From: an uncultured Alistipes sp. | Lineage (GTDB): Bacteria > Bacteroidota > Bacteroidia > Bacteroidales > Rikenellaceae | Direction of reading: 5' to 3' | Assembly (NCBI RefSeq): GCF_963931675.1 | Contig: NZ_OZ007039.1 | Coordinates: 2,207,806 to 2,271,805 of the forward strand | DNA: 64,000 nucleotides | Shown here: one piece after another, positions 55,760 through 58,386 of the stretch | Numbering within the stretch: position 1 is the stretch's first letter | Layout of the letters: the number at the start of each line of letters is the position of its first letter | Made by a program: the position numbers and the translations under genes | Notes under the pieces: generated by a model | The model's database searches: none | The model's input: the letters and a program-made list of their open reading frames with translations, nothing else | Told to the model about the DNA's origin: nothing

Positions 55760-55791
55760 TTGCAAAGATACGAATTTATTTTCTAACTTTG
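55760..55791 (+). promoter_or_regulatory. Promoter of the cobalamin riboswitch transcript (TTG-N21-TAACTTTG)
   Basis: TTG at 55760-55762, 21 bases, TAACTTTG at 55784-55791. The -33 region overlaps the fabD -7 box on the other strand. Confidence 0.65.
55763..55770 (-). promoter_or_regulatory. -7 box of fabD (TATCTTTG)
   Basis: The reverse strand reads TATCTTTG 29 bases before the fabD ATG, overlapping the divergent riboswitch promoter. Confidence 0.6.
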
Positions 55792-55796
55792 CACCG

Positions 55797-56025
55797 CCAA
55801 GGTTCACAAAGGGCCGATCCCGCGTATGCGATCGAGTATGCAGGAGGTTGTGAGGCTCTGCGTGATGAAAAGGGAATGCCGTGAAAATCGGCAGCAGTTC
55901 CCGCTGCTGTAAGTCCCGTTGATTGCCGCAACACGCTGGCCACTGGTCCCTCAGGACCGGGAAGGCGTTGCGACAGGGATGAGCCAGAAGACCTGCCTTG
56001 CACTTCCCGGGAGGGGAGAATCTTT
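55797..56025 (+). ncRNA. Cobalamin (adenosylcobalamin-type) riboswitch
   Basis: All core elements occur in order: AAAAGGGAA near 55868, GTGAAAATC near 55881, GCAGTTCCCGCTGCTGTAA near 55893, the B12-box region GGCCACTGG at 55938-55946, GGGAAGGC near 55959, and GATGAGCCAGAAGACCTGCC near 55978. The aptamer is followed by CTTCCC-GGGA-GGGGAG and a T-rich run (near 56002-56026), which could act as a terminator switched by ligand. Another 160 bases of leader separate it from the first lipoprotein gene. High cobalamin should lower expression. Confidence 0.93.
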
Positions 56026-56186
56026 TTCGAGCGCATCTGCGGAGAACGGAGCATCGTGGAAATCGGCGACAGGCCGCAAAAACGGGTGTTTGTTTGGTGT
56101 GATACGGCGAAAACGGAGGATTCGATCTCGGGAGGCACGGGACCGGATTTTTTGTTTTTATACATATTCATTTAAACCAAACGACC

Positions 56187-57293
56187 ATGAAACGATTTCT
56201 ATTTGTTTCGGCCATTGTGCTGATGGACATGCTGGCTTTTGTCGGCTGTGCAAATGATGACAACGGGAATGATTCGGTTCCGGCGACAGCTGTCGTGCTG
56301 GATGTCACGGAAAAGGACCTTGTGATGGGGGAGACCCTCCAACTGACGGCGACGCCCGCTCCGGCCGATACGACGGATCCGGTGGTGTGGAGCTCGGACA
56401 AGGAGACCGTGGCCACGGTTTCGGAAACGGGACTGGTGACGGCCGTAGCGCCGGGTACGGCGGTTGTCAAGGCGGTTTGCGGCAGCGTGTCGGCGACCTG
56501 CACCGTACAGGTTACCGAGCCCGCTGCGGAGTATGACATCATCTCCTTCGAGGAGGAAGAGGGTATGATGGACTTCGTGGGCAGTGCCGTCGAATTGGGC
56601 GATATAGAGGTGGTCGGTGGAAGCGCTGCCGGGACCCAACACCATGTTTTCTGGGCAAAACCCTATGCGGCCGAGTACGGTGACCCCGATGGAATCATGG
56701 GGTTGGAACTCGACTGTCTGCTCTTCTCTTCCGCCGATGAGAATGTCTGGTTCGGCTCTTATTATTGTGACTGTACCGGATGGGGCTCCCAGATGGATAC
56801 GTGGGGCGGCTTCGTGCTGTCGCAGAACTGCAATACGACGGCAACCTCGCACGATTACGCCAATCAGTTCTCCGTGTACGCCGAATCGGGCGCCAATTCG
56901 GGCAAGACCTTCGCCGTGGCCTACTGCAACGGCATGATGGGCGGGGCATACTCCGCGCCGGTCATTGAATTCTCCAAAACACCCCGCACGGTGGCCTATC
57001 TGTACATGGCTCCCTCGACGATGCTCGATTCCTATTATAAATACGATCTTACGGCCGCCAGGGACCGCACGTTCGGGTTCCGGATCACCGGGTCGCTGAA
57101 CGGAGAATCGACCGGTACGGTGGATGTGACGCTGGTGAAGAACAGCACGGTCGAGGCCGGATGGGTCAAGGTCGATCTCTCGGCGCTGGGACAGGTCGAC
57201 AAACTGGCCTTCGCGCCCGAAGGCATCAATCCCAACGTGGATTTCGATCCGGTTTACTTCTGCCTGGATGAGATCGCGCTGGTGAAAGAGTAA
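56187..57293 (+). CDS. Lipoprotein with BIG2 Ig-like and DUF4465-type domains
   Basis: A 368-aa lipoprotein under the cobalamin riboswitch. Signal MKRFLFVSAIVLMDMLAFVGC, then ANDDNGND. Residues of about 30-112 are a bacterial Ig-like (BIG2) domain (VVLDVTEKDLVMGETLQLTATPAPADTTDPVVWSS...CTVQV). The rest is DUF4465-like: WGGFVLSQNCNTT, QFSVYAESGANSGKTFAVAYCNG, VAYLYMAPSTMLDSYY, GFRITGSLNGESTG, GWVKVDLSALGQVDKLAFAPEG and YFCLDEIALVKE. Control by the riboswitch and the surface signal suggest corrinoid capture outside the cell. BtuH-type B12-binding lipoproteins are known from Bacteroides, but a direct relation is not shown here. Confidence 0.83.
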   Translation: MKRFLFVSAIVLMDMLAFVGCANDDNGNDSVPATAVVLDVTEKDLVMGETLQLTATPAPADTTDPVVWSSDKETVATVSETGLVTAVAPGTAVVKAVCGSVSATCTVQVTEPAAEYDIISFEEEEGMMDFVGSAVELGDIEVVGGSAAGTQHHVFWAKPYAAEYGDPDGIMGLELDCLLFSSADENVWFGSYYCDCTGWGSQMDTWGGFVLSQNCNTTATSHDYANQFSVYAESGANSGKTFAVAYCNGMMGGAYSAPVIEFSKTPRTVAYLYMAPSTMLDSYYKYDLTAARDRTFGFRITGSLNGESTGTVDVTLVKNSTVEAGWVKVDLSALGQVDKLAFAPEGINPNVDFDPVYFCLDEIALVKE

Positions 57294-57320
57294 GACTTTT
57301 ATTAAATAAATTTTGCGAAT

Positions 57321-58154
57321 ATGAAATTGAATATGAAACTCTTGTCTCGCTTTTTTCTGGCGACGCTGTGTGTAGCCTCTGTGGCTGCCTGCTCGGATGA
57401 TGATGAGGGTGAACCGGCGCCGGAGTACGATGTGATCTCCTTCGAGCCTTCGGAGCACATGGTCGATGTCAACGGCGAAGAAATTGCGCTGAAAAGCGTC
57501 ACCATGAGCCTCTATGAAGGGGCTGGATACGCCGACTTCACCTTTGCCTCCATCTACTGCGGCAAGGAGTACGCTACGACGGAAAACCATGACGGCCCGC
57601 TCTTCATGACCGCCGACGGCTCGGTGGAATTCCTCTCCTACTATGCCTCCGGCTTTGACTACTGGAACGGAATTGCCCTGGCCGCCATGCCCGACATGCA
57701 GCCGGCTGCCAGTGCCCCGAAGCAGCAGTTCTCCGTATGGGCCGAAGGCGGTGCCAACAATACGCCGACCTATGCCGTCTGCTACGACTCGAATACCCCT
57801 TCGGAGGGATATCCTGCAGGGATGAGCAAATCGGGCTATCCGACCTTCACCCTTGCGCAGCCCCGGGTTGTCGATCACCTCTACATCGCCAATTCGACCT
57901 ATGTCTACAATTGGTTCCAGGGCGAAGAGGGCGACTTGTTCCAGGTGAAGATCACCGGATGGAACGGTGACACCGAAGTAGGTTCGACGACCGAGACGTT
58001 GATTTCGGGTTCGACGAAGCTTGCCGGATGGCGCAAGGTGAATTTGGCCTCGTTGGGAGCCGTCGATAAACTGGTCTTCAAGGTGGCGGGTATCGATATT
58101 ACGCAGGATCCCTCCTATTTCTGCATCGACGAAGTCGCGCTTGTGAAGGAGTAA
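57321..58154 (+). CDS. DUF4465-type surface lipoprotein
   Basis: A 277-aa paralogue of the preceding protein without the BIG2 domain. The signal MKLNMKLLSRFFLATLCVASVAAC is followed by SDDDE, an exact match to the kind of acidic export signal that sends Bacteroidetes lipoproteins to the cell surface. Shared segments are YDVISFE, FDYWNGIALAAMPD, QFSVWAEGGANNTPTYAVCYD, VDHLYIANSTYVYNWF, FQVKITGWNGDT, GWRKVNLASLGAVDKLVFKVAG and YFCIDEVALVKE, the same closing motif as its neighbour. It starts 27 bases after the first gene, in the same riboswitch transcript, and ends before a strong terminator. Confidence 0.85.
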   Translation: MKLNMKLLSRFFLATLCVASVAACSDDDEGEPAPEYDVISFEPSEHMVDVNGEEIALKSVTMSLYEGAGYADFTFASIYCGKEYATTENHDGPLFMTADGSVEFLSYYASGFDYWNGIALAAMPDMQPAASAPKQQFSVWAEGGANNTPTYAVCYDSNTPSEGYPAGMSKSGYPTFTLAQPRVVDHLYIANSTYVYNWFQGEEGDLFQVKITGWNGDTEVGSTTETLISGSTKLAGWRKVNLASLGAVDKLVFKVAGIDITQDPSYFCIDEVALVKE

Positions 58155-58180
58155 TCCGGTGTCCGGCAATTCTGAAAACA

Positions 58181-58212
58181 ACCGCCCCCGCAGTTCTCTG
58201 CGGGGGCGGTTT
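58181..58212 (+). terminator. Terminator after the DUF4465 pair
   Basis: A 13-bp perfect stem ACCGCCCCCGCAG with its complement and a TTCT loop, then TTT, 26 bases after the stop codon. Confidence 0.82.
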
Positions 58213-58307
58213 CGTGTATTCCGGGCATTTTCGTGTATTCCGGGCATTTTCGTGTATTCCGGGCATTTTCGTGTATTCCGGGCATTTTCGTGTATTCCGG
58301 GCATTTT
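58213..58307. repeat. Five perfect tandem copies of a 19-bp unit
   Basis: The unit cgtgtattccgggcatttt is repeated five times without a mismatch (58213-58231, 58232-58250, 58251-58269, 58270-58288, 58289-58307). It starts directly after the terminator of the lipoprotein operon, in the 232-base space before the convergent rhaD gene. The rest of that space (58308-58386) is GC-rich with nothing recognised. Confidence 0.92.
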
Positions 58308-58386
58308 CGCGGGACCGGGACTTTTGCAGTCCGGGGCGGAGTGCCGGTTTCGGGGACCCGCGTCCTGCCGCCGCCGGGCCGGGGCG

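Follow-up and report, generated by a model that had tools for sequence, protein, structure and literature searches.

Proteins with a DUF4465 domain form the BtuJ family; the papers on its B12 binding and its structures date from 2025-2026 (PMC12751083 and PMC13398666). BtuJ1 and BtuJ2 of Bacteroides thetaiotaomicron, two lipoproteins under riboswitch control, bind cobalamin with very high affinity and enable vesicles to deliver it; hand-over of the captured cobalamin to the importer has been proposed (PMC12751083). Eight DUF4465 proteins, including one from a Rikenellaceae bacterium, were shown to bind B12 (PMC13398666). Here we analyze a pair of such proteins, A and B, encoded in a 64,000-nucleotide stretch of an uncultured Alistipes sp. 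(hereafter the window). A and B belong to a known kind of protein; the novelty lies only in their stand-alone arrangement, a BtuJ pair apart from the importer operon. In the literature searched we found no paper joining a cobalamin riboswitch with Alistipes; an earlier mention of the stand-alone locus may exist.

A two-gene operon behind a cobalamin riboswitch

The riboswitch heads only two lipoprotein genes, both with a DUF4465 domain, and a strong hairpin closes the unit. The features of the locus, in window coordinates, are as follows:

55784..55791, + strand: -7 promoter element of Bacteroidetes type, TAACTTTG, for the riboswitch transcript, read from the sequence
55836..56014, + strand: cobalamin riboswitch aptamer, RF00174, 102.6 bits, E 1.4e-24, model positions 1-189 of 189
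56109..56161, + strand: predicted expression platform, a long hairpin (56109-56159) and U-run just 5' of the start codon, from the leader fold
56187..57293, + strand: gene of protein A, a lipoprotein of 368 aa with Big_2 (34-106) and DUF4465 (203-363) domains (Pfam)
57321..58154, + strand: gene of protein B, a lipoprotein of 277 aa with a DUF4465 domain (112-272, Pfam)
58180..58212, + strand: closing hairpin with a short U-run, probable terminator, fold z-score -7.05

The aptamer covers the full-length model, and its score compares with a gathering score of 31.5 bits for RF00174. None of 200 shuffled sequences is as stable as the closing hairpin (GCCCCCGCAG..CTGCGGGGGC), whose U-run is short (UUU), and an equivalent GC-rich hairpin is present in the related locus L039. 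The operon is flanked by fabD upstream and a class II aldolase-like gene downstream, both on the opposite strand, and neither flank holds a btu or cob gene. The first-pass annotation, made from the letters alone, had described a complete riboswitch leading to two paralogous lipoproteins, one with an added BIG2 domain, and a strong terminator, with no btuB, btuG-type or cob gene adjacent; each of these elements was recovered here. Directly 3' of the closing hairpin, at positions 58210-58309 of the window, a 19-bp unit (TTTCGTGTATTCCGGGCAT) is perfectly repeated in tandem, with 5.3 copies; the related locus L039 shows no such repeat.

The -7 motif is of a type established for Bacteroidetes. Among 17 aligned riboswitches from related loci, 15 have a TAnnTTTG-like element in the equivalent position, immediately 5' of the aptamer; the remaining two matches are truncated and begin 3' of the element's position. 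A fabD -7-like motif (TATCTTTG) lies on the minus strand at 55770-55763. The fabD and riboswitch promoters appear divergent (window 55763-55791), and some 14 bp separate their -7 elements; the B12 operon and fabD could therefore interfere with each other's transcription.

The leader hairpin (AAAACGGAGGAUUCGAUCUCGGG...) stands before the first start codon and ends in a U-run. A hairpin with a U-run is also present in the leaders of five relatives (L039, L040, L048, L144 and L047) and was not found in three others (L049, L050 and L051). On this distribution and on single-sequence folding, the hairpin is predicted to act, in the usual reading, as the intrinsic terminator of an OFF state that would depend on ligand binding. 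This predicted terminator-type expression platform is a new point of the analysis. An antiterminator pairing of 56019-56032 with 56109-56124 appears plausible by eye; it is not claimed here, because in most leaders the duplex energies did not exceed those of shuffled sequences.

Proteins A and B have the BtuJ fold

Over 276 aa A and B are 36% identical, in an alignment that includes the closing motif previously noted as common to both. PF14717 (DUF4465, IPR027828) matches the two proteins at 64.6 and 76.6 bits against a cut-off of 25, and only A carries a Big_2 domain. Searches of PDB structures with a single sequence (phmmer) gave weak matches to DUF4465 structures, and a profile was required for clear ones: the local-family profile matches 9hmu (3e-18) and 9fct (1.9e-15), both B12-bound.

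The AlphaFold2 models (pLDDT 84.2 for B and 86.6 for A) both match the DUF4465 structures 9hmu, 9fct, 9i2l, 4jqr and 4e9k, with an augmented beta-jellyroll, at Z 19-23. Model B reaches Z 22.9 to 9hmu and 22.5 to BtuJ1 (9fct), the next unrelated fold being at 9.4, and residues 113-368 of model A reach 22.2 and 22.0 to the same two structures; the background of other folds for the two models is at Z 9.4-9.5. Residues 27-113 of model A match the solved Big_2 domain of 7quz at Z 14.1. The models also match CBM22, CBM4 and CBM29 folds at Z 8-9.5, as would be expected if the riboswitch were real but A and B bound something else, such as a carbohydrate. This is highly unlikely, as the DUF4465 structures at Z 19-23 include several that are B12-bound, the genes stand behind a cobalamin riboswitch and their relatives occur in btu operons. 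The carbohydrate-binding reading was rejected because of the gap in Z-score between the DUF4465 and CBM structures.

The first-pass annotation had pointed to structure prediction and to BtuH-type B12 binders for comparison. The models place A and B with BtuJ, and the likeness to BtuH does not stand: B has no detectable sequence similarity to the genome's own BtuH, which rules out BtuH membership. The capture of B12 suggested at the same time is probable for A and B, given the eight DUF4465 proteins shown to bind B12 (PMC13398666).

Both proteins have acidic residues after the lipobox cysteine, as reported earlier, with ANDDN following C21 in A and exactly SDDDE following C24 in B. The surface-export consensus of B. 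fragilis is SDDDD (PMC5080379), to which the CSDDDE of B is close; the signal of A is weaker, ANDDN being poorer than SDDDE in this role. We infer that both proteins are located at the surface.

The importer is encoded elsewhere in the genome

The genome consists of one contig of 3.38 Mb, in which A and B are the only DUF4465 genes and four cobalamin riboswitches are found. One of these, 208 kb from the A/B locus, heads a btuG-btuH-btuB operon, whose products match 8bmx_D (BtuG, E 1.3e-106), 7biz (BtuH, E 1.2e-54) and 8bmx_C (BtuB, E 8.8e-232). A BtuFCD-like ABC operon at 1.62 Mb holds the sole FecCD permease of the genome; no riboswitch was detected at this operon, which could serve another ligand. 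In B. thetaiotaomicron, too, the lipoprotein BtuF2 comes from an operon in which no riboswitch has been identified (PMC12751083). Two proteins carry B12-binding domains, and their open frames, of 1331 and 720 aa, are compatible with MetH and methylmalonyl-CoA mutase. CbiC is absent from the genome, which favors B12 auxotrophy but is by itself no proof of it.

Because btuG-btuH-btuB, the BtuFCD-like operon and the B12 enzymes lie elsewhere in the genome, the locus is stand-alone while the system is complete: the term orphan fits the locus but not the system. The earlier description of an orphan module with no transporter therefore holds for the locus and fails for the genome, and the distant transporter it had invoked is present, under the same riboswitch class, as the probable recipient of what A and B would capture.

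Two further riboswitches were observed. The one at L038:5496-5692 (- strand; genome C1:2045495-2045691) precedes an NRDD gene (L038:3201-5804, - strand) for a class III ribonucleotide reductase, an anaerobic and B12-independent enzyme, so that B12 probably represses this B12-free reductase through the riboswitch. The other, at L037:12272-12468 (- strand; genome C1:3021271-3021467), lies ahead of a short open reading frame (L037:11661-12158, - strand; 122 aa from MNILLYG) without a Pfam match, an uncharacterised B12-regulon protein. Seven of 12 related genomes encode homologs of the latter, and at least two of these homologs (G149:C7 and G134:C75) have a riboswitch 0.2-0.3 kb upstream.

The split arrangement is conserved in Alistipes

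DUF4465 genes behind cobalamin riboswitches, a search proposed with the first-pass annotation, were surveyed in 150 sampled genomes of the family. DUF4465 is present in 78 of them, and 122 matches were read in context. A riboswitch accompanies 56 of the 60 matches that lie within 4.5 kb of btuH, btuG or btuB, 11 of the 13 that adjoin a divergent fabD and 16 of the 49 located elsewhere. Thirty-three stand-alone matches, for example at L063, L102 and L119, have no btu genes nearby and no riboswitch detected ahead of them. The fabD-linked matches come from 12 of the 150 genomes, 10 of which have the riboswitch and nine of which have no other DUF4465. A DUF5074 (BtuG-type) protein is encoded in all 13 genomes examined with a fabD locus, including the present one. 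Whereas DUF4465 is often found inside a btuHGB operon in related genomes, the regulon is here split in two. At L052 (G060:C17) and L147 (G084:C20), from two genomes of the genus, DUF4465 is beside fabD and no cobalamin riboswitch was found.

A and B occur together, again between fabD and the aldolase-like gene, in at least three named Alistipes assemblies: two of uncultured Alistipes (L181 and L182) and one of Candidatus Alistipes intestinigallinarum (L183). An A-type protein stands alone at the locus of A. montrealensis (L184) and is the sole DUF4465 protein of that genome (G127), and a B-type protein stands alone in Candidatus A. faecavium and others (L186-L188). In the tree, the fabD-locus proteins fall into two neighboring clades, with 2 label changes compared to a shuffled mean of 14.4, and A and B occupy separate, well-supported branches of one fabD-locus clade. 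From these clades and from the A-only and B-only species, the pair seems to stem from a duplication at a stand-alone site of long standing, after which some species lost one copy; we propose this order of events tentatively. One btu operon contains, directly 3' of its intact DUF4465 gene, a 52-aa DUF4465 fragment (L041:7008-7200; G099:C5:3226013-3226147) that is a probable decayed duplicate.

As btuB, btuG and btuH are missing at the locus, the juxtaposition might be due to chance, the riboswitch having been left beside fabD by a lost btu operon with the DUF4465 genes as remnants. Such an origin is already disfavored, and we give it very little credence: the open reading frames are intact, the stand-alone unit is conserved across the genus in 11 riboswitch-bearing fabD-linked matches, identity to close relatives is 90-92% for B and 78-90% for A, and the fabD-locus proteins cluster in the tree.

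A and B lack different pocket tyrosines

Residues of the binding pocket were compared by aligning A and B with BtuJ1 and by reading a family alignment of 123 rows; Trp78 of BtuJ1 was left out, as two alignments disagree for B. The HI-loop tyrosine (Y245 of BtuJ1), nearly invariant family-wide, is kept in A and B (FDPVYF and QDPSYF), and the Asn-Thr (NT) of the HI-loop motif is replaced in both. A keeps Y97 as well and has Met at the DE-loop tyrosine Y146, while B keeps Y146 and has Pro at the AB-loop tyrosine Y97. This pattern holds in the orthologs of A (L181, L183 and L184) and of B (L181, L183 and L186-L188). Since Y146 is replaced in 20 of the 123 rows and Y97 in 42, either loss alone is unremarkable, and Y146 does not appear, on this alignment, to be strictly defining for the family. 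The new point is that the two partners lack different members of BtuJ1's three corrin-contacting tyrosines; with the NT replacement, affinity or ligand could differ.

It is possible, though not what we would expect first, that the paralogs are specialized for different cobamides (or B12 precursors or analogs), one for cobalamin and the other for another corrinoid, widening the diet of the single BtuB. The complementary tyrosine losses kept in the orthologs, the identity of just 36% and the conservation of the pair in three named assemblies are consistent with such a division, against which Y97 is Tyr in only 81 of 123 rows and Y146 is also replaced repeatedly, neither loss being rare. In another scenario, which we regard as unlikely, B alone, with its canonical export signal, would bind B12 at the surface, and A, no longer a tight binder, would serve with its Big_2 stalk as a spacer, adhesin or vesicle anchor. 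In favor are the Big_2 insert of A, the ANDDN that follows its lipobox cysteine and its missing Y146, and there is a precedent in BtuK1 of B. thetaiotaomicron, which binds cobalamin while its close paralog BtuK2 does not (PMC12751083). However, A keeps Y97, Y245 and the fold at Z 22, and in A. montrealensis, where no other DUF4465 protein is encoded, an A-type protein must do the job alone.

Proposed function

Taken together, the locus is very probably a stand-alone BtuJ operon for two diverged surface lipoproteins that capture cobamides and feed the remote BtuG-BtuH-BtuB under low B12; capture at the surface or on vesicles for this importer is the most likely function of A and B. When intracellular B12 is high, the bound aptamer would let the hairpin form before the first start codon, and transcription would stop. 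At low B12, A and B would be made alongside the BtuG-BtuH-BtuB importer, whose operon is headed by a riboswitch of this class as well. They would be exported to the outer surface, possibly being carried on outer-membrane vesicles by analogy with BtuJ of B. thetaiotaomicron, and would bind cobamides tightly while the vitamin is scarce. Captured B12 would be handed to the BtuH/BtuBG importer, and the ABC transporter would bring it inside for the MetH-like and mutase-like enzymes.

A more far-reaching reading, which we hold to be rather doubtful, is that in one Alistipes lineage BtuJ moved out of the importer operon to a site next to fabD, under a riboswitch of its own, and duplicated there, giving a transporter-independent and perhaps vesicle-borne module whose two members, with complementary tyrosine losses and one Big_2 stalk, take different cobamides for a shared BtuBG. 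Independently of this reading, the locus shows that the genes for BtuJ-type capture can be separate from those of the importer, an arrangement that the vesicle-as-siderophore model (PMC12751083) permits. With their opposite pocket substitutions, A and B form a natural two-paralog set for probing which contacts set corrinoid preference. An annotation based on neighborhood only would label their genes orphan.

Comparison with known systems

The closest described proteins, BtuJ1 and BtuJ2 of B. thetaiotaomicron (BT_1491 and BT_1957; PDB 9FCT, 9I2L and 9QPM), are of the same family as A and B. Both sets are lipoproteins under cobalamin-riboswitch control with the augmented jellyroll fold (Z 19-23), and both consist of two paralogs of low mutual identity with a conserved HI-loop tyrosine. 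BtuJ1 and BtuJ2, however, sit inside btu transport operons, in two places, whereas A and B share an operon of their own without a transporter; A carries Big_2, and A and B each lack one shared tyrosine. The domain and fold are also common to the DUF4465 proteins D5EK51 (9HMU), Pan, Fluta, 656, Cylst and Halo, of which 656 binds B12 and is from the Rikenellaceae, like the host of A and B; a stand-alone riboswitch operon of two paralogs is not described in that source (PMC13398666), nor is a Big_2 fusion discussed in the parts consulted. BtuH (7BIZ) is, as A and B would be, a B12-binding surface lipoprotein from cobalamin-riboswitch loci; its sequence is unrelated, and the BtuH of this genome sits in the btuG-btuH-btuB operon. 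The BtuG/BtuB complex (8BMX and 8P97), a propeller lipoprotein with a TonB barrel as opposed to the jellyroll of A and B, is encoded in the same genome and is their likely recipient.
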